A stretch of DNA of 42,767 bases from a virus: positions 1 through 42,767 of IMG/VR virus record IMGVR_UViG_3300025410_000036; one strand, 5' to 3'. Below the pieces are notes generated by a model. It had not been told where the DNA came from. It saw only the letters and a program-made list of their open reading frames with translations, and made no database searches. The position numbers and the translations under genes are program-made. Shown piece by piece: positions 2,924 to 13,923 of the stretch; position 1 is the first letter of the stretch, and every line of letters begins with the position of its first letter.

Positions 2924-4021
2924 CTAAAAACTCCCGCCATCCAACATCCCGAACTGAGGAACACCACTTCCGTTAACCTGAAGAACATTGCCTTCAATAC
3001 CAGAAGCAGTAACTTTTAGATCACCGGAGTTGTTACCGAATAGAATACCATTTTCTGTGAAAGATGTTTTACCTGTACCACCAACTGGAACTTTTACGAT
3101 ACCTGTGCTGATATAAGAACCGTTAGCAGCATTTGTATTAGCGGCAGTTCCTACACCATCAGCATATGTATTGCCAGCAGCACCAACAGACGCCGCATAA
3201 GCATTGGCAGCATTGGCCATGAATCCAGCGTAGTTATTGGCAGAAGAACCAACAACAACTGCATATGCATTGCCTGATGTACCAACTGATTCGGCATATG
3301 TATTACCAGCGGCACCTACTGCCTCAGCATAAGTATTTCCTGCCGCACCTACTGATTCAGCATAGGTATTTCCTGCTGCACCAACTTGAACGGCATAACC
3401 GTTAGCAGATGTTGCTACACTTTCTAGTTCTGTATTACCAACGATATTAACGTATGTTGTACCGTCGTTTGTAAATGTCCACTTATTGGTGCCTTCATTC
3501 CATAATAGTGATACGTTTGCATCAGCACCACGATTGACCTCCATACCTGCATCTTGTGTAGCAGATATACCTGGATCTAAATCGGCATTTAGGACGAAAA
3601 TATTATCACTAACAAGTAATGACTGTGTATTAACGTAAGTGGTAGTACCTGTAACAGTTAAGTTTGCTTGAACTGTCAGGTCACCGGTTAATGTACCACC
3701 AGTGTATGGTAGGTATGTTGCCGCAGCATAAGCATTGGCAGCATTAGCCATGAATCCGGCATAATTATTGGAGGAAACAGATGTGTTTCCTAAATTGTTA
3801 CTTAGTGTATTAGCATAATCATATGCTGAATTGGTAACACCAAATGCAACATTTAACTGGTCGATAAAATACTTACCGCCGATAGCAATTGTACCGTCAC
3901 CAGCAGCATTACCTATAAAGAGTTTGTCGGAAAGATAGGAATACGCCTGTTCACCGGCAGATAGAGTTGTTGGTGCAGTAGTGACGCTACTACGTTTAAT
4001 TTGAATTTTTGTATTAGACAT
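2924..4021 (-). CDS. Tail fibre protein with VGAAGNTYAE repeats
   Basis: 365 residues. The N-terminal attachment-type domain (IQIKRSSVTTAPTTLSAGEQ...DKLFIGNAAGDGT) matches the fibre domain at the start of the gene at 1-1607. The middle has a TYLPYTGGTLTGDLTVQANL module, as in many fibre shafts, then LLWNEGTNKWTFTNDGTT. Residues about 200-290 hold an 11-residue repeat (YAESVGAAGNT) plus NNYAGFMANAANAYAAS, also found in the fibre at 1-1607. The C-terminus ends GMLDGGSF, the same terminal signature (DGGxF) as two small genes nearby. Preceded by a ribosome binding site (CGGAG) at normal spacing. Probably a short accessory fibre of the baseplate. Confidence 0.75.
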   Translation of the reverse strand: MSNTKIQIKRSSVTTAPTTLSAGEQAYSYLSDKLFIGNAAGDGTIAIGGKYFIDQLNVAFGVTNSAYDYANTLSNNLGNTSVSSNNYAGFMANAANAYAAATYLPYTGGTLTGDLTVQANLTVTGTTTYVNTQSLLVSDNIFVLNADLDPGISATQDAGMEVNRGADANVSLLWNEGTNKWTFTNDGTTYVNIVGNTELESVATSANGYAVQVGAAGNTYAESVGAAGNTYAEAVGAAGNTYAESVGTSGNAYAVVVGSSANNYAGFMANAANAYAASVGAAGNTYADGVGTAANTNAANGSYISTGIVKVPVGGTGKTSFTENGILFGNNSGDLKVTASGIEGNVLQVNGSGVPQFGMLDGGSF

Positions 4022-4049
4022 TTTGATGATAACTCCGTTTAATTATTTT

Positions 4050-4298
4050 TTAAAATGTTCCGCCATCTATATCAGGCAATTCTTCTACTACAAATTTGCC
4101 ACTACTTTCTTCATAAACAAGAGTTTCATTCTGATGTATATTGGTGGCGTCTACGTCTCTTAATTCTACAATTGTATCAACAGGATTAAGAGGACCGGCC
4201 GCTCTTCCTGTATTCACTGTTAGTTTTTTTGTTGTACCACTATTTATACTAATTCTATTTTTAGAAGTGGTTCTGAACTTGCCGTATTTGTTGGCAGG
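4050..4298 (-). pseudogene. Remnant of a DGGxF small fibre-locus gene without a start codon
   Basis: The open frame reads KNRISINSGTTKKLTV, then ELRDVDATNIHQNETLVYEE, then SGKFVVEELPDIDGGTF. It aligns end to end with the intact 80-residue protein at 10628-10870 (GRIVVKGGSTQKM, LKDVDSSHVANNETVVYD, SGKFVIETLPILDGGEF). No ATG occurs in this frame between the upstream in-frame stop (4299-4301) and the conserved core. The 5' end overlaps, in the -1 frame, a truncated copy of the gene normally upstream of it. Either a deletion fused and broke the pair, a frameshift is used, or one indel in the assembly splits a single fused gene. It could also start at a non-ATG codon. Confidence 0.6.
4241..4248 (-). 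promoter_or_regulatory. Late promoter-like TATAAATA in the broken cassette
   Basis: Exact octamer on the minus strand at the end of the truncated YVELY copy, 220 nt before the 365-residue fibre ATG. If used, it gives that fibre its own transcript through the remnant region. No other box lies nearer the fibre. Confidence 0.35.
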
Positions 4299-4378
4299 TT
4301 AGTGTTGTCGTCATTAATAATAATGGTGGTACTGAAATCGGTACCTTGGTCGATGTATAGTTCGACGTATTCGGCCAT
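4244..4378 (-). pseudogene. Truncated YVELY-family gene (44 codons)
   Basis: Reads MAEYVELYIDQGTDFSTTI then IINDDNTNLPTN before diverging and stopping after 44 codons. The first 31 residues match the start of the complete 113-residue homologue at 10878-11219 (MSEYVELYMDQGADFSTTI). The remaining three quarters of that protein, including its FDVKVNDTIAGLKSR and EGIMFVTP segments, are missing. The reading frame then runs through sequence that codes, in the -1 frame, for the DGGTF protein. The start is strong and has an AAGGAACC-type ribosome binding site. It may be a decayed gene, or the 5' half of a deletion-made fusion of two cassette genes. Confidence 0.6.
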
Positions 4379-4387
4379 TATGGTTCC

Positions 4388-4852
4388 TTATGGAGTATTG
4401 GCAGTTGGTTGTTCGTTACTTGGTAGTGCTGGCCATACAACATCTTCTGGTAATTCAAACTTAGAAGGAACATCTCTTAGTTCTTGTCTATATGTTTTCC
4501 AAGCATCAAGATTTGGTAAAGAAACATCGGCCAATTGAGTCCAATCACTTTCACTTAGTAATTGATCTCTTTTGTCTCTAATAAGTTTCCAATATGTAGG
4601 ATCTTTTTGCTTTTTAAGTTCAATAATAGCAAGTCTTTCTTCTTCTTTTCTTTGTAATAAAGTAGCATTAAAAGATTCAGGACTTACATTAGTAACTTCC
4701 CAGTAAGATACGTTCCATCTCAAATATTCGTCATTATTAACTTGAGGAGGATCAACACCTATAGCATAATTACTAGGTATCGGATCTGTATCAGGAACTT
4801 CTACCTGCTCTCCAGTATAATATCTGTTGGAATCTATTTGATATAGTTTCAT
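4388..4852 (-). CDS. Tail fibre assembly chaperone-like protein
   Basis: 154 residues. The C-terminal half carries the recognisable phage tail assembly chaperone signature: a charged helix (RKEEERLAIIELKKQKD), then RDKRDQLLSESDWTQLADV, then WKTYRQELRDVP and a terminal WPALP. In many phages this domain lies on proteins that fold or cap the fibre encoded just upstream. The N-terminal half (MKLYQIDSNRYYTGEQVEVPD, RWNVSYWEV) is typical of the fibre-contacting part. It lies 12 nt downstream of the cysteine-rich fibre gene, so that fibre is the likely client. The family is well supported by motif; client specificity is inferred from position. Confidence 0.75.
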   Translation of the reverse strand: MKLYQIDSNRYYTGEQVEVPDTDPIPSNYAIGVDPPQVNNDEYLRWNVSYWEVTNVSPESFNATLLQRKEEERLAIIELKKQKDPTYWKLIRDKRDQLLSESDWTQLADVSLPNLDAWKTYRQELRDVPSKFELPEDVVWPALPSNEQPTANTP

Positions 4853-4864
4853 TAATATTTAATC

Positions 4865-7777
4865 CTACGTTTTAATGTATGTTTTAAATTGTGTGTTTGC
4901 GCCCGAAGAATAACTTACCGAATTGGCAGTATATACTGGTGTTTTAAAAGAAACAGCAGTATTGTAACTATAAACATTTGCTGTAGTCGAATATAAACTA
5001 TAAGCAGCATAATAGTAACTAGTTTCTGTGCAACCCCAACAACATCTTGAAGCCATATGACCCATGTAGTTATAAGGATCAATAAATCCTCCAAGATAAT
5101 AACAACGATTTCTAAAAGATACCTGACCGGAGTTATTCCAAGTTGTTACAGGACCTAACAACGAACCAGCGGAACATCTAAAGTTAACGCCATCGTAAGT
5201 GATACCGCCGCCGTAGCCATAATAGTTTCCGTTGTAACATCTAATTACCGATGCTGCCTGGATATCAAAACCATAAGTATTTAAACCATTCCAGCAGGCA
5301 TATATTGTGCAACTACAAGCAGCACTTAAATTGGTAAGATCCCAAGAACATATAGCTAGATTTGACATGTAGGCACAGCAACTTGCATAACCGAAACAAC
5401 ATTGTCCATACAGGTTATAATCATATGTTAATACTCTACCATTAAACACGTTAAGAATATAAAATCCTGGGAATACAATATTGATAAAGCAACACGTACC
5501 TGGATCAAACGACCACATAGCAGAACTTGGGTTTCCGTCAAAGTAATTATTACCAGCACATGCTATACCACACTGAACGGTAAGGTAACAACAATTATTG
5601 TAGTTACAAGGAATAGCAGTTGCAGAAGGATAAGCACCGCCGCGGCGTCCAGTTTGAATATCGCCACCTGGATGTGGTCTAAAAATGTAATTACAATTTG
5701 AAACCGTATCATAACAATGAGCCCACGGTTCATTTTGACCCATAGCACTCATACACTGATAAGAACGGTTACAACCACAAAGCGGACAGAATATTGCACC
5801 AGAAGGATTAGCCCCCGGTGTATATGTTCCTGAATATTCAGAATGGCCCCAATGATGGAACTCGTAATTGAATCCTTGATACATACAAGTTTGAGCATTG
5901 GCGCTTGAACTTGTGCAATGTAAGAAATTACACAAACTATAAGAGGTACAAACACCGCATGTAGAGGTATTAATGGTTGCTGGAGTCCAAGTGGTTAAGT
6001 CACTAGACTGTATAATTGAACAGAAATACATACTTACAGGAACCGTTGTATAACAAAGTGTATTGCAACCAAATAATTGAAATCTAGGTACGATAAAGAA
6101 ATTATCACATTTTTTATTATAGAAAACCCACGGAGAACCAGGAAACGCACATAACCCAGCTGCACAATATGGATAAGCAGCACCTGCACACACATTGGTG
6201 TTAGCATAACATGAAGCAGACCATGTTGTTGGATTAAACAAATTGCCAGAAGAATCTTTCCATCCGGCGCCACCAACTGAGCAATAATTTCCCCAATATC
6301 CACTACAATCTTTAGGTACACATGCAACAAAATTATTTATATAAAGATATCCTGGATATCCACTATTGCTGCCGGCACAACAAACAAAAAAGGACGATCC
6401 TCCAGCACAAGCCAAACAGAAACATGCTAGAGCAGATGTTCCTATAGTATTGGCAGTATTCCAAGTTGTTCCGGCATCGGTAGTATAAGCATAGTAATAA
6501 TTAGGACAGTTATTATAGGGGTCTCCAAAAAGACAACTTGAGACATTACTACATGTTCTATAGAGTGTTCCTACGGTTAACAATGCTCTACATTTACCAT
6601 CATCTACTAGATGTGGATTAGCCATTCCACATGATAAACCATGAATCCAAGAACACATAACAGATCCATTATATCCATGAAATGAATAAGGCGTTGGCAT
6701 AGTGTAAGTTTTTGTGTAACAACCTACACCGCAATTACAATTTGTTGTAATCGTAAAATAAAAGGCGGCGCAAGCATTTGAGACGCAACACCAACAATTT
6801 GAAACTTTTGATGTTAGTAGAGAGATGTATTTATTACTACAACAGAAATAAGCTGTTGATCCACCAAAAGCACATGGGCCAGCATTTAAATACTGCCATC
6901 CGTTCATCGCATTAATCGTAGTACCAGATCCTAGTCCCAAACCTGGTCCATATCCGCATCCAGCGCCTGAAGTCATAATACTTTGAACGCATGATGGATA
7001 ACAACATGCCCAAACTGCCAGATTACAGTATCCTGAAGCACAAATTTGATTTAATACAGCAGTTAAACATTGATAAGAAGATAGTCCTGATGGTGCAAGA
7101 TCGGGCCATATATAGTAACAACATGAAATATTATCAACATTGGCTCCAGAAGAAGGAGTTACATAAAATTCTGAAACTAGGTTTCCGAAACAAGTATTGC
7201 TACAGGTTGAACTAAAGCAACGACCTAATCCGTCTAATTGAATACCAATACAATTAAACAATGTTGGATAAGAACTCTGTAGATAAACGGTGTCTGTGCA
7301 AACATATCCTGAAGGTGGACATGAACATGCAATAGATACAATTGTTGCAGGTAAAATAGAAGTAATGCCACTTAATGAAGCACCATTACCATAAAATGCT
7401 GTAGCACAAAAATTTCCTGTTGCTGTTAATGTACCGGAAAAAGTACCTGTAGTGTTCTGTAATGCAGTATTAGCAACACCGAAAGCAGCATTTGCTACTG
7501 TATAACCACCGTTAGCAGTCGTGTAACCAGCATTGGCAACCGTATACCCACCGTTAGCAGTTGTATAACCGGCATTTGCTACTGCATAACCACCGTTAGC
7601 GGTACCATATGCAGCATTTGCTACACAAAACCCAGCATTTGCAGTTCCAAAAGCCTGAGGTTGTTCGATAGAAGGCAATATCTTCCACACACTGTATGTG
7701 GAATCATATTGATATGATAACCCACCTGATGTGTAAAGCTGACCATTAGTGGGGCTTGATGGAAAGTCTAGTGCCAT
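4865..7777 (-). CDS. Giant cysteine-rich tail fibre / beta-propeller adhesin
   Basis: 970 residues. Residues 1-40 (LDFPSSPTNGQLYTSGGLSY, then a W) form the same N-terminal anchor as the fibre at 9504-10547. Residues 42-105 are 7/14-residue repeats (ANAGYTTANGGYTV). A short TGTFSGTLTATGNF module follows. From about residue 150 the protein is a large beta-rich domain with Asp-box-like turns (TTDAGTTW, QSSDLTTW, TYDGVNF), suggesting a sialidase/BNR-like propeller. It is extremely rich in cysteine: my hand count is about 82 (8.5%), with at least ten CC pairs (YFCC, CWCCVSNAC, FVCC, SRCCWGC), against two in the related propeller protein at 8384-9496. Two CATAAATA boxes lie 34-50 nt upstream. No signal peptide. 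Likely a receptor-binding protein; the role of the cysteines is unknown. Confidence 0.75.
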   Translation of the reverse strand: MALDFPSSPTNGQLYTSGGLSYQYDSTYSVWKILPSIEQPQAFGTANAGFCVANAAYGTANGGYAVANAGYTTANGGYTVANAGYTTANGGYTVANAAFGVANTALQNTTGTFSGTLTATGNFCATAFYGNGASLSGITSILPATIVSIACSCPPSGYVCTDTVYLQSSYPTLFNCIGIQLDGLGRCFSSTCSNTCFGNLVSEFYVTPSSGANVDNISCCYYIWPDLAPSGLSSYQCLTAVLNQICASGYCNLAVWACCYPSCVQSIMTSGAGCGYGPGLGLGSGTTINAMNGWQYLNAGPCAFGGSTAYFCCSNKYISLLTSKVSNCWCCVSNACAAFYFTITTNCNCGVGCYTKTYTMPTPYSFHGYNGSVMCSWIHGLSCGMANPHLVDDGKCRALLTVGTLYRTCSNVSSCLFGDPYNNCPNYYYAYTTDAGTTWNTANTIGTSALACFCLACAGGSSFFVCCAGSNSGYPGYLYINNFVACVPKDCSGYWGNYCSVGGAGWKDSSGNLFNPTTWSASCYANTNVCAGAAYPYCAAGLCAFPGSPWVFYNKKCDNFFIVPRFQLFGCNTLCYTTVPVSMYFCSIIQSSDLTTWTPATINTSTCGVCTSYSLCNFLHCTSSSANAQTCMYQGFNYEFHHWGHSEYSGTYTPGANPSGAIFCPLCGCNRSYQCMSAMGQNEPWAHCYDTVSNCNYIFRPHPGGDIQTGRRGGAYPSATAIPCNYNNCCYLTVQCGIACAGNNYFDGNPSSAMWSFDPGTCCFINIVFPGFYILNVFNGRVLTYDYNLYGQCCFGYASCCAYMSNLAICSWDLTNLSAACSCTIYACWNGLNTYGFDIQAASVIRCYNGNYYGYGGGITYDGVNFRCSAGSLLGPVTTWNNSGQVSFRNRCYYLGGFIDPYNYMGHMASRCCWGCTETSYYYAAYSLYSTTANVYSYNTAVSFKTPVYTANSVSYSSGANTQFKTYIKT

Positions 7778-7811: not shown

Positions 7812-7828
7812 TATTTATGATATTTATG
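7812..7828 (-). promoter_or_regulatory. Two late promoter-like CATAAATA boxes before the cysteine-rich fibre
   Basis: On the minus strand CATAAATA occurs at 7812-7819 and again at 7821-7828, 34 and 43 nt upstream of the ATG of the cysteine-rich gene, near the stop of the chaperone-like gene. Tandem copies suggest an individually driven late gene. Confidence 0.45.
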
Positions 7829-8383: not shown

Positions 8384-9496
8384 TTAATAACCATAGGAGT
8401 TTGAAGAAAATGAAGCAGAGCTTGGAAAACCGCTAACGGTGACTGATGACCAATTTTGTCCATCACTGGAACTATAAACATTACCGTTAGTCATTCGAGC
8501 ATAAAATGTTCCCTTCCAAGAATAAAGAGTAGGAAAATTGGAAGCTGTTACGGGAAGTCCTGTGCCTGTATACCAATTTGCTCCATTATCAGTTGAATAG
8601 AATATTGTTCCATAATTGGATCCAGAATAATATCCTGACAGAAGAAGTTTTCCGCTAGGAGTTCCTAAAACTTTATATATGCTATTAATAAGTCCAAAAC
8701 CTGTTCCAGTATAATGAAAACTTGCAGTAGTTTTACTCCAAGACGAATAACCAGTAGTCGATCTATATACATTACAAGTAGATGTAGATGAATCGTAATA
8801 AATAACTACATAATTACCATTAATATATCCCGAATATACTATCGAGGTGGTTTCGGCGACCGTTGCTATATTACCTGATGACCAACTTAAACCATCGGCC
8901 GAATAATAATATAATGGATAACCTGTTCCGGAAATAGTATCATAATTGCTTCCTCCTATCATACCGTTAGAACCAACAATGATTGGAGTATTCCCTAGGG
9001 ATTTATTAAAAAGTGAACCGTTTCCTATACTAGTCCAAGATCCTGTAAGATTAGGAAGAGTAGCATAATCACCATAAATATAGTTTGAATATTGTTGCAA
9101 TCCAAAGATTGATCCATTAAAACCAGCCAAGGAATTTGGCATACCATAAATACCACCGTAAGTTCTATTTACATAAGTTGAAAAGTTGCTGGATGACCAG
9201 TTTATAAGATACTTTGAATAAACTATATACAAAGGCCCATTTTGTGGTACACATAATATAATATAATATCCATTATAATATATTATATTATTTGCTCCAA
9301 TTGCTGGATTTGTAGCACCAATATTTACTGTAGTTGGCCCGGTCCAAGTCAAAAAATCTAATGATTTGTAAATATCTATGGATTGTGTATTGGTTCCAGG
9401 TGTTTGTTTTGCTGCAATAGCATAAATCTTTTTACTAAGTCCAAAATTTCCAAATCCTCCAGCACTACCGGCGCCTTTAGTTATAATATTTGGCAT
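8384..9496 (-). CDS. Seven-bladed BNR/Asp-box beta-propeller adhesin
   Basis: 370 residues. A short Gly-rich N-terminus (ITKGAGSAGGFGNFG) precedes seven regularly spaced Asp-box-like turns ending in Trp: SLDFLTW, SKYLINW, LPNLTGSW, SADGLSW, STTGYSSW, STDNGANW, SSSDGQNW. Seven such motifs fit a seven-bladed propeller like sialidases or BNR lectins, but I see no sialidase catalytic Arg-triad signature, so glycan binding is likelier than hydrolysis. Only two Cys. It sits directly downstream of the 347-residue fibre (7-nt gap) and upstream of a chaperone-like gene. The neighbouring cysteine-rich fibre carries an anchor plus propeller in one chain, so this pair may be the split equivalent. Expected at the fibre tip. 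Confidence 0.7.
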   Translation of the reverse strand: MPNIITKGAGSAGGFGNFGLSKKIYAIAAKQTPGTNTQSIDIYKSLDFLTWTGPTTVNIGATNPAIGANNIIYYNGYYIILCVPQNGPLYIVYSKYLINWSSSNFSTYVNRTYGGIYGMPNSLAGFNGSIFGLQQYSNYIYGDYATLPNLTGSWTSIGNGSLFNKSLGNTPIIVGSNGMIGGSNYDTISGTGYPLYYYSADGLSWSSGNIATVAETTSIVYSGYINGNYVVIYYDSSTSTCNVYRSTTGYSSWSKTTASFHYTGTGFGLINSIYKVLGTPSGKLLLSGYYSGSNYGTIFYSTDNGANWYTGTGLPVTASNFPTLYSWKGTFYARMTNGNVYSSSDGQNWSSVTVSGFPSSASFSSNSYGY

Positions 9497-9503
9497 ATTA
9501 TCC

Positions 9504-10547
9504 TCACTTAAACTGCGTCTGAGATGCTAGAACAGTAAATGTAGCACTACCTGTTTTGATAATTGTATATGTGTAAATGTCCGTAGAACTTGCGTTACCT
9601 CCCGACGGAGCAGATCCTCCTTGCCAAATAACAGTTGGTGATCCACTATCAATTGTAACAGAGTTATTATAATAAGCAGTACCTCCTTGGGCCGCCAAAA
9701 ATGCAACTGTTATTGCCTGACCAGTAGTCATTAAAGAATCCATCGAGGTTCCGGATGAACCTCGTAAATTGACGGTCCAGTTTGCACCAGCTGAAGAATT
9801 ATAATAAAGAACTGATTGAGTTAAAACATCAAAGTTAATAGTACCAGTAGCGCCTGTTCCAGTAATCGTTACGGGTTCACCAGCATTTTTCAAAATAGTC
9901 GCTATTGTAGTTGTTGAACCATTAAAAGTTTGTGTTGCTGTATATGTTTGTGTAACAGAATTAGAAACAGCAGCATTAGCTTTAGCAAACGCGGCCGTTG
10001 TATTGGTAGAAACACCATTGGCAAAAGTAAAAGCAGCAGTAGTATTTGTTGAAACTCCATTTGCAAAAGTAAAAGCAGCAGTAGTATTTGTTGAAACTCC
10101 ATTTGCAAAAGTATAACCAGCATTAGCTACACCAAAAGAAGCATTAGCTACACTAAAAGAAGCATTAGCAACGGTATAACCGCCGTTGGCAACCACATAA
10201 GAACCATTTGCTACAGAGTATCCAACGTTAGCAGTATTAAATGCTACGTTTAATAGATTATACTGAGGAAAGGCTGTTGAATATGCAGGTTCAACCCATT
10301 GACTGCTTGTTCCATCATTGAAATAGACAAACATTCTTAGTAGATCGGTATTGAACCAGATATCGCCTGGTTGCGTGTTTGCTAATGTTGGAGGTGTGCT
10401 ACCGACATGTGCAACTGAAGTGATGATTGGATCTTGAACAACTGTTGTTAACCAAGCACCTACTGTAGCATCGTAATAATAAGATACACCATTTAGTGTA
10501 TATTTTTGTCCGCCAACGGGACTAGACGGAAAGTCTAAAGTTGCCAT
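9504..10547 (-). CDS. Tail fibre protein with FANGVSTNTTAAF repeats
   Basis: 347 residues. The N-terminal anchor (LDFPSSPVGGQKYTLNGVSY, then W) matches the cysteine-rich fibre. A GDIWFNTDLLRMFVYFND segment follows. Residues about 105-190 are 7- and 14-residue repeats (ANGGYTVANASFSV, FANGVSTNTTAAFT), with a 42-bp unit tandemly repeated in the DNA near 10030-10113. The C-terminal domain (TINFDVLTQSVLYYNSSAG, MTTGQAITVAFLAAQGGTAY, ending FTVLASQTQFK) is a head domain I recognise from fibres of aquatic T4-like phages. It follows the small YVELY and DGGEF genes, as the 365-residue fibre follows their damaged copies. Likely a trimeric fibre whose partner is the propeller protein encoded next. Confidence 0.75.
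   Translation of the reverse strand: MATLDFPSSPVGGQKYTLNGVSYYYDATVGAWLTTVVQDPIITSVAHVGSTPPTLANTQPGDIWFNTDLLRMFVYFNDGTSSQWVEPAYSTAFPQYNLLNVAFNTANVGYSVANGSYVVANGGYTVANASFSVANASFGVANAGYTFANGVSTNTTAAFTFANGVSTNTTAAFTFANGVSTNTTAAFAKANAAVSNSVTQTYTATQTFNGSTTTIATILKNAGEPVTITGTGATGTINFDVLTQSVLYYNSSAGANWTVNLRGSSGTSMDSLMTTGQAITVAFLAAQGGTAYYNNSVTIDSGSPTVIWQGGSAPSGGNASSTDIYTYTIIKTGSATFTVLASQTQFK
10029..10113. repeat. 42-bp tandem repeats in the 347-residue fibre gene
   Basis: A 42-bp unit encoding FANGVSTNTTAAFT occurs as two identical adjacent copies and a more diverged third (toward 9985). The same 14-residue unit is used many times in the 715-residue fibre, with different codons, so the two genes share repeat protein sequence but not recent DNA. 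Confidence 0.75.
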
Positions 10548-10553
10548 ATCAAG

Positions 10554-10631
10554 TTATTCCTTGTTTTCTAGTTTATTATTTAATTCTTTTATTGCTTCAA
10601 TAAGGAAAGCGATGATGCTGTCATATCTTAA
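10554..10631 (-). pseudogene. Fragment resembling a tail fibre C-terminal chaperone tail
   Basis: The gap between two genes reads, in one frame, YDSIIAFLIEAIKELNNKLE before a stop. That amphipathic LIEAIKELN helix resembles the last helix of the intramolecular chaperone (peptidase S74 type) found at the end of many phage fibres. The frame has no ATG, and a stop precedes it within the upstream gene, so it cannot be a full gene. It may be a leftover of a fibre lost by recombination, or chance. Short, so low confidence. Confidence 0.3.
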
Positions 10632-10870
10632 AATTCTCCTCCGTCTAAGATGGGCAACGTTTCAATTACAAACTTTCCACTTTGCGCATCGTAAACTACA
10701 GTTTCATTATTTGCTACATGACTAGAATCAACATCTTTAAGTTGAACAAGTTCTTGCACTCCGCCGGCACCTACGCCATTAAAGGTATTTAACAAAATCC
10801 GATTTTTAGGTGTAGTGGTAACAATCATTTTTTGTGTTGACCCACCTTTAACTACTATTCTTCCTGGCAT
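10628..10870 (-). CDS. Small conserved fibre-locus protein ending DGGEF
   Basis: 80 residues, beta-rich by appearance: GRIVVKGGSTQKMIVTTTP, LVQLKDVDSSHVANNETVVY, SGKFVIETLPILDGGEF. I recognise the type as a short gene common in tail fibre regions of aquatic T4-like phages, but no function is known to me. Its stop is followed by an unused 80-nt stretch with a fibre-chaperone-like fragment. It lies 7 nt after the YVELY gene. The same pair, truncated and out of frame, recurs at 4050-4378. Ending DGGxF is shared with the 365-residue fibre (DGGSF), hinting at a common terminal motif. Probably a minor fibre or baseplate accessory component. Confidence 0.6.
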   Translation of the reverse strand: MPGRIVVKGGSTQKMIVTTTPKNRILLNTFNGVGAGGVQELVQLKDVDSSHVANNETVVYDAQSGKFVIETLPILDGGEF

Positions 10871-10877
10871 CTTTTAC

Positions 10878-11219
10878 CTATTGTGTTATCTGTGGAGTAA
10901 CAAACATAATACCTTCAATAAGTCTAGATTTTAATCCAGCAATAGTATCATTCACCTTAACATCAAAGAAATATGTTCCGGCCTCTATATTGGATGTATT
11001 AGCTGCATCCAATTCTACATATATTTCACCAGAATTAGCTTGTGGAATGGTACAAACTAAAGTAGCAGTTACATTCTGTGAAAGTATGGACTTCCTCATT
11101 GAACTGGTTACAATATATCCAGTCAAATTTTGCGCCAAGTTATTATCTTCACTATTAATTTGAATTGTGGTACTGAAATCGGCACCTTGGTCCATATAGA
11201 GTTCTACGTATTCGGACAT
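10878..11219 (-). CDS. Small conserved fibre-locus protein (YVELY family, Ig-like)
   Basis: 113 residues. The pattern YVELYMDQGADFSTTI, LTGYIVTSSMRKS, GEIYVELDAANTS, GTYFFDVKV, RLIEGIMFVTPQI suggests a single immunoglobulin-like beta-sandwich, similar in layout to the N-terminal domain of phage baseplate upper proteins (BppU_N-like). Intact, and preceded by a TATAAATA box 27-35 nt upstream of its ATG, so it probably opens a late transcript for the module down to the 347-residue fibre. A damaged paralogue is at 4244-4378. The Ig-like reading is from pattern, not from a search. Confidence 0.6.
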   Translation of the reverse strand: MSEYVELYMDQGADFSTTIQINSEDNNLAQNLTGYIVTSSMRKSILSQNVTATLVCTIPQANSGEIYVELDAANTSNIEAGTYFFDVKVNDTIAGLKSRLIEGIMFVTPQITQ

Positions 11220-12324: not shown

Positions 12325-13923
12325 TTAATTTTGTGGACCTGAAATAGATCCTGAATTATTAACTTTTATATAGCTTGCACCACATATAGAATATCCTTGT
12401 GGACCTGATGTACCTGGTGATCCTGCTGGTCCTGGTGATCCTGCTGTACCTGCGGGCCCTGTTGGTCCGGTAGGTCCTGTCGGTCCTTGTGGTCCTGGAT
12501 ATGGATAATTAGGTGCTGGTGTACCAGGTGATCCTGAAGGTCCTGTCGGTCCTTGTGGGCCGTAAGCACCTGGTGATCCTGCCGGCCCGCCGCTAGAACC
12601 CCCCTGTGTTCTCCACAAACTACAACCGCTGTATCCAGTGCTACCTGCTGATCCTGCTGATCCTATGACACCGCCGGTACCTCCAGGTGCACCGGCACCT
12701 CCAGCGCCAGTTCCACCGGGACCGTTGAAATTTACACCACCGGGAGATCCTGGACTACCCATTTTAGAATAAGTAACTGATGGTTGAACGGTGTTGGGAA
12801 CTCCATAATATGCTGTACCTGCGGATCCTCCTGGCCCACCAAAATTTCCTCCTCCGCCGCCTCGACCTTGACCGCCGCCGCCGCCACCGCCTGTTGCTGA
12901 GTCCGTCCCATAAGGATTTCCATAAGTAGGACTGGTAGCGGCGCTAGATCCTGCTCCACCTCCACCACCACCACCTGATTTACCAGGACTTCCAGGACCA
13001 CCTGGCCCGCCAGGACCACCTGGTCCACCTGGACCACCTGGGCCTCCTAATCCTCCAGGACCTCCGTTGCCACCTGGCCCACCAGGACCACCTGGGCCGG
13101 CGGGACCACCAGGACCACCTGGGCCGGCCGGGCCTCCGGGTCCGCCAGGACCACCTACAATTGAACCAGTGTTATTAAGATAATATAAAACATTTGAAAC
13201 ATTATCAACTTTTAAAGATGATCCGCCAATAGAACCGGTTCCTCCGGTACCTCCTGGCCCACCTGCTGTTCCTGTACCACCCGGTCCTCCAGTACCACCT
13301 GGGCCACCTGGATATCCTGTAGATCCGAAAGAATAATATCCAGGACCACCTGTGCCGCCTGGACCGCCTGAACCTCCTGGACAACCAGGATCACCTGTTC
13401 CACCAGAAGAACCGGCAGTAGGCGAACTAATATATGTGTCATATTCATTACCGAAAAGAAAATAATATGCGTATCCTGAAGATCCTCCTGCTCCACCTCC
13501 GCCTTGAAGGCGATAATATACAGAGCAAGAAACACCAGGAGAACCAGTAGATCCTGTTGATCCTGTATATCCCGGTGAACCCGGTCCTGCTGTTGGTGGT
13601 GTGCTATATGATGGAGTTCCGGGTGTTCCTGTAGTGCCGGTAGATCCTATAGAACCTGGAGTTCCTGTATTCCCTGTAGGACCGGGACTTCCTGGCCCTC
13701 CACTTATCGTTGCATTATTTTTGATAAAAACTGCGGCTCCGGGTTGCCATCCGGTTCCTGTTCTTAATGCAGGAGTTGAATTTGAAGAACCTATATTACC
13801 ATTGACAAATGCATAAACATATAAAGGATAAGATGGATTACCTGCTTGAGAATATATGTTTATGTTATTTCCAGAACTGACATTTACAACTTTGGATGGT
13901 ATTAAAATAGGTGTTACAAACAT
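12325..13923 (-). CDS. Collagen-like / polyglycine fibre protein
   Basis: 532 residues. A globular N-terminal part (about 1-68, [19 protein letters not shown]) is followed by low-complexity Gly-X-Y. Residues about 74-100 are strict triplets with Pro often in the Y place ([16 protein letters not shown]). Later blocks are [13 protein letters not shown]-like or polyglycine ([15 protein letters not shown]), broken by short Tyr/Ser-rich inserts. The motif N-x-(A/G)-(T/S)-I-x-G recurs three times ([31 protein letters not shown]), once at the very end. This could form a collagen triple helix, or polyglycine-II sheets like the glycine-rich adhesins of T-even phages (gp38 type). It sits between the 715-residue fibre and the hydroxylase operon, suggesting a fibre tip or shaft. 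Confidence 0.75.

Follow-up and report, generated by a model that had tools for sequence, protein, structure and literature searches.

A cysteine-saturated tip on a tail fibre of an uncultivated T4-like phage, and cysteine-rich tips on unrelated phage fibres

The window analysed here, a 42,767-nt stretch of viral DNA (IMG/VR record IMGVR_UViG_3300025410_000036), comes from a T4-like (Kyanoviridae-type) phage whose gp6 is closest to those of Methylophilales phage Melnitz and of Pelagibacter phages. A fibre/chaperone cassette spans about 4.4–10.6 kb of it, and one of its genes encodes a 970-aa protein with 82 cysteines. The features of this region, with the parts of the Cys-rich protein, are as follows.

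4050..4378, minus strand: decayed copy of a two-gene unit (113-aa and 80-aa genes), a fusion of the 113-aa gene's 5′ end with the 80-aa gene's 3′ end; downstream edge of the cassette
4388..4852, minus strand: tail-fibre assembly chaperone, Phage_tail_APC (Pfam PF16778, E = 4e-18; PHROG tail fibre assembly)
4865..7777, minus strand: gene for the Cys-saturated tail fibre (970 aa, 82 of them Cys)
4868..7357, minus strand: distal tip, 830 aa, with 80 of the 82 Cys, S/T-x-D...W/F motifs and an architecture like that of L490, L506 and L507; ends ...NTQFKTYIKT
7190..7351, minus strand: degenerate phage tail-collar segment, residues 143–196, 7 Cys (phmmer)
7358..7447, minus strand: hinge GTLTATGNFCATAFYGNGASLSG, residues 111–140, near-identical in a second phage (G001), where a different tip follows
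7448..7657, minus strand: stalk of 7-residue AN-repeats beginning GYTTANGGYTVANA, residues 41–110, one Cys
7667..7777, minus strand: N-terminal anchor beginning MALDFPSSPTNGQLYT, residues 1–37, common to many phage fibres
7812..7827, minus strand: two T4-late-promoter-like ATAAATA boxes, 41 and 50 nt upstream of the start codon
7824..8372, minus strand: 182-aa cassette protein with matches to PHROG families that have no assigned function; it resembles a chaperone gene in position only
8384..9496, minus strand: 370-aa propeller-like protein, 2 Cys, weak DUF6242/BNR-like matches
9504..10547, minus strand: 347-aa anchor and stalk fibre, 0 Cys, a member of the same cassette
10628..11219, minus strand: intact copy of the conserved unit of 113-aa and 80-aa genes; upstream edge of the cassette

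Phage structural proteins are synthesised in the reducing cytoplasm and are normally poor in cysteine. The initial annotation had put this protein at about 8.5% Cys in an open frame that uses both Cys codons, and all of this was borne out: the 970 codons run uninterrupted from ATG to TAG behind a Shine-Dalgarno-like AAGGAAA, and Cys accounts for 82 of them (8.5%), at residues 51 and 124 and then from 151 to 916, so that 80 follow the hinge and residues 141–925 hold 80 in 785 (10.2%). The ratio of TGT to TGC (66:16, or 0.80) fits the preference for T-ending codons seen in the same gene for Tyr, Asn, Phe and Asp (0.72–0.77), and thus we see no codon anomaly. The remaining 31 tabulated ORFs of the window have 0–2.5% Cys, and the binomial tail for the observed load, with an assumed background rate of 1%, is about 1e-47. 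Cys richness is a genuine trait of this protein and is restricted to the fibre tip.

Pairs and short runs of Cys, which the initial annotation had singled out, proved to be as frequent as random placement gives, with 10 CC and 6 CxC against 8.1 expected for each by shuffling. CxxC stood at 5 against 8.1, and no Cys spacing was preferred above chance in the same test. Since neither CxxC nor CC is in excess, the protein has no classical metal or knottin motif; a zinc-knuckle or Fe-S type is likewise not indicated, with CxxC and CxC not enriched and no known profile matched. The Cys of the tip are more evenly spread than random (dispersion 0.60 vs 0.88), which is what a distributed cross-linking network would allow. 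The protein also has 10 His.

The anchor and the AN-repeats, the late-promoter-like boxes and the adjoining Phage_tail_APC gene all point to a tail fibre, in agreement with the initial annotation, and we consider the protein a putative receptor-binding fibre of the virion, with the gene at 4388–4852 as its probable dedicated chaperone. The anchor motif DFPSSPTxGQ was found in 54 fibre ORFs and occurs in the sister fibres of the window and of G001 as well, while the 21-nt direct repeats of the stalk are also present in the fibre at 9504–10547, and the stalk matches PHROG tail fibre families at E = 0.005–0.01. Beyond the hinge, the collar segment was matched by phmmer to collar proteins such as L078, L491 and L497 (E of about 1e-4 to 1e-3, pairwise over residues 143–190). 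The window protein itself gave no Pfam match to Collar (PF07484), and the homologous segment of L506 scored just under the cut-off for that family. Aligned by eye, the collar homologues have mostly A or V at C176 and S, A, V or T at C153, as expected from the earlier suggestion that Cys stands here in place of the small or apolar residues of Cys-poor homologues. Residues of the Ser/Ala type, which the annotation had linked to random Cys placement, were therefore found at the few alignable positions, yet they do not make the trait random because Cys-loaded tips recur on different folds, as described below.

The most similar overall layout is that of L506 (collar plus WD40-like) and L507 (collar-like plus BNR), which share with the window fibre a VYLQSxYPxLFxxIG collar segment, a region resembling a propeller after it and, at the end, a short strand; they differ in having 1–3 Cys in 480–500 aa, as against 80 in the 830 aa of the window tip, where just three S/T-x-D...W/F motifs of propeller type occur and no propeller profile was matched. 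Given this layout, the collar matches, the three motifs and a C-terminal NTQFKTYIKT that resembles the closing strand of collar proteins, the tip is probably a collar segment with a beta-propeller inserted in or after the collar fold. An AlphaFold model of the full 970-aa fibre from its single sequence had a mean pLDDT of 29, with only the N-terminal anchor reaching 55–80. The propeller-like protein at 8384–9496 had been taken for a relative of the tip with two Cys; the two Cys are there, but homology to the tip was not detectable (best BLASTP E = 0.02, with no composition correction). The tip had no homologue by tblastn among 50,697 phage records, with Cys masked as X or not and at E = 10 and 1, nor any match among PDB, Pfam or PHROG profiles. 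A Pfam match to Ntox37 (E = 0.02, under the cut-off) was dismissed as chance, and a scan of genome contigs for the pattern CAxxFYGNG returned chance matches in bacterial genes only.

We compared the locus with 80 related loci, fetched with the neighbouring 113-aa gene as marker. In the relatives L394–L399, whose marker is 84–90% identical, the homologue of the fibre at 2924–4021 comes after the marker at a distance of no more than about 225 bp, and the segment with the fibre at 9504, the propeller-like gene at 8384, the 182-aa gene at 7824, the Cys-rich fibre at 4865 and the chaperone at 4388 is missing. The decayed copy of the two-gene unit retains 31 residues of the 113-aa gene (68% identity) followed by 43 of the 80-aa gene (53%), with the middle gone, and sits in the gap at 4022–4387 as a presumed recombination scar at the cassette edge. 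The cassette looks acquired, because the closest relatives lack it and a copy of one two-gene unit stands on either side of it, intact at one end and decayed at the other; such flanks would be expected if recombination had inserted the cassette at a unit that was duplicated. Elsewhere in the window, a protein starting MEKYGFIYLWYDRKRKMYYIGSHWG (2200–2874) appears by eye to be GIY-YIG endonuclease-like and lies among fibre genes, and the gene for a 532-aa protein (12325–13923) has 51.6% GC against 36.7% for the window.

None of the 80 lineage loci showed marked Cys enrichment in a fibre except G001 (IMGVR_UViG_3300032308_000692), and a lineage-wide Cys trait was ruled out on this basis. The anchor, stalk and hinge of G001 are like those of the window fibre, and its tip is also enriched in Cys. 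Its 370-aa fibre shares the end of the stalk and the hinge (TANGGYTVANAAFGxANxALQNTTGxFxGTLTATGNxCATxFYGxGAxLxG, the hinge being GTLTATGNxCATxFYGxGAxLxG), after which comes a Gly-rich, Cys-bearing domain, and the same phage encodes, in a gene of its own, a further Gly-rich protein of 385 aa that is tip-like and has 17 Cys (4.4%). The tip differs from that of the window in being Gly-rich rather than collar/propeller and in its lower Cys content (2.7–4.4%). With two tips of different fold, judged by sequence, both enriched in Cys, common descent of the tip is no explanation.

Unrelated Cys-loaded fibres of a few other environmental phages were found with the hinge pattern GNxCAxxFYG, and since this pattern was itself seeded with a Cys the search gives no frequency. 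L374 (L476 14696–16429, contig G008) is a 577-aa fibre-like protein with 55 Cys (9.5%), rising to 11.5% after the hinge on a contig of 53% GC; the AlphaFold model of its Cys-rich end had a pLDDT of 34. Contig G010 (L483–L484) has fibres of 546–1,300 aa with 3–5% Cys, and contig G011 encodes a giant fibre of at least 5,141 aa with 302 Cys (L478 4574–19999) and, near it, a 4,340-aa fibre with 133 Cys (L479 4125–17147). A 448-aa protein with 22 Cys is also encoded on G011, and on contig G012 several proteins of no assigned role have 3.5–6% Cys (L485 8602–9834 and 17264–18793; L109 7640–8608). Like the window, L374, G010 and G011 combine fibre-like genes of 3–9.5% Cys with genomes in which most other large genes are Cys-poor, but their fibres consist of YadA-head or antifreeze-type beta-roll repeats or have unknown folds, and are not homologous to the window tip.

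The 5,141-aa fibre is made of YadA-head repeats (Pfam PF05658, E = 1e-36), with solved relatives that include BpaC 7o23 and 1p9h. Its Cys occupy fixed variable positions of the coil, reaching 33% at one position and 19%, 16% and 14% at others, and make up 0–1% at those nearby S and A positions of the conserved SxAxG core which were left free in the search (+7, +9 and −5). Pairs of Cys 14 residues apart number 71, compared with about 18 expected at the overall Cys density (302 squared over 5,141), and with the fixed coil positions this means that columns of Cys can stack along the fibre.

Cys contents of this order are rare. The highest value among the 54 IMG/VR fibres that share the anchor motif was 1.8%, and only one of the 1,122 distinct ORFs of at least 300 aa in all fetched viral loci exceeded 8.5%, the fibre-like L374. 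Twenty-six of these ORFs reach 3%; as judged by reading the sequences, several of them come from GC-rich contigs and are spurious frames, while the plausible genes are mostly fibre- or tip-like. The cultured marine relatives Melnitz, HTVC008M and Mosig (the last two Pelagibacter phages) resemble the window in their T4-like baseplate genes, with gp6 33–39% identical, but differ in that their large ORFs have at most 1.4% Cys in the 49-kb regions sampled, and no comparable Cys-saturated fibre was found in the sampled regions of these phages or of Roseobacter phage CRP-1. Cys-saturated phage fibres were not described in the open-access literature searched, which is weak evidence of novelty given that most subscription journals fall outside it. 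Tail fibres whose tips can be exchanged are a known kind of protein, and the Cys saturation would be the new element.

The explanation we favour, with reserve, is plausible: an acquired cassette would have brought a receptor-binding fibre with an exchangeable, Cys-loaded tip that is hardened by disulfides after lysis. On an ordinary anchor and stalk, Cys would have been added to the 830-aa tip where alignable relatives have small or apolar residues. The thiols would stay reduced during chaperone-assisted folding and trimerisation of the fibre in the cytoplasm; after lysis, many neighbouring thiols could oxidise to disulfides within and between chains, which may make the exposed tip harder to unfold or to degrade by proteolysis. 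Cys that are paired or stacked in beta-rich trimers and then released to an oxidising medium would thus leave the tip locked. That Cys is confined to tips, occurs on different folds and takes positions outside the core speaks for selection acting on thiols at the virion's exposed end, and the different Cys-rich tip of G001, the unrelated Cys-saturated fibres and the low Cys content of most other genes on the same contigs favour selection over drift. Cys seems to be favoured in some fibre tips, and the trait seems to have evolved repeatedly. Points against this account are that no spacing signature is present, that the searches gave no homologue of the Cys-rich core, and that G001 alone among the 80 lineage loci has marked Cys enrichment in its fibres.

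The chief rival is passive tolerance, in which Cys is a small, weakly apolar substitute for Ser, Thr, Ala or Val in beta-rich tips, perhaps in low-oxygen habitats, and forms no cross-links. We regard it as somewhat unlikely overall, and as plausible if the hosts live without oxygen: the window fibre has no spacing motif, its collar homologues carry A, V, S or T at the alignable Cys positions, and in the YadA-head repeats S and T occur at the same positions as Cys, but neutral drift would not easily raise Cys from below 1% to 10% in fibre tips only, and do so on several folds, and the phage's remaining genes keep normal low Cys rates. The very high thiol density, along with the 10 His, would also suit a tip that binds Zn, Cu, Fe or a similar metal at many sites, to gain stability or to adhere to metal-coated host surfaces; with CxxC below chance (5 vs 8.1) and no recognised metal domain matched, this reading is less likely, and we consider it improbable.

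Free thiols of the tip might instead react with thiols or disulfides of the host surface, for covalent or redox-gated adsorption. The limitation of Cys to the presumed receptor-binding end and its recurrence in tips of different fold agree with such a role, which we nevertheless judge very unlikely, as there is no single reactive motif and 80 Cys far exceed the need of such a switch. Least credible is an artefact of composition through non-standard TGY decoding, mis-assembly or an unexpressed gene. Although the tip has no sequence homologue, the 970-codon frame is open with normal codon preference, the chaperone gene and the late-promoter-like boxes adjoin it, and independent contigs have the same trait; alternative TGY decoding was rejected because TGT and TGC serve as rare normal codons in other genes of the window and the codon preference is normal.

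Extended to uncultivated phages at large, the reading of a tip hardened after lysis leads to a broader proposal that is possible and, to us, doubtful: unrelated receptor-binding tips may have become Cys-saturated independently, to be cross-linked by disulfides or metal only outside the reducing cell, in a widespread and unrecognised class. If distal ends with 4–11% Cys form a real class across several folds and phage groups, they would reflect a shared selective pressure on the virion's exposed end, and Cys content would provide a sequence-level handle for finding such phages. The class would give a testable form to the idea that receptor-binding proteins mature after lysis, and it may supply binding scaffolds that are very stable or react with thiols.
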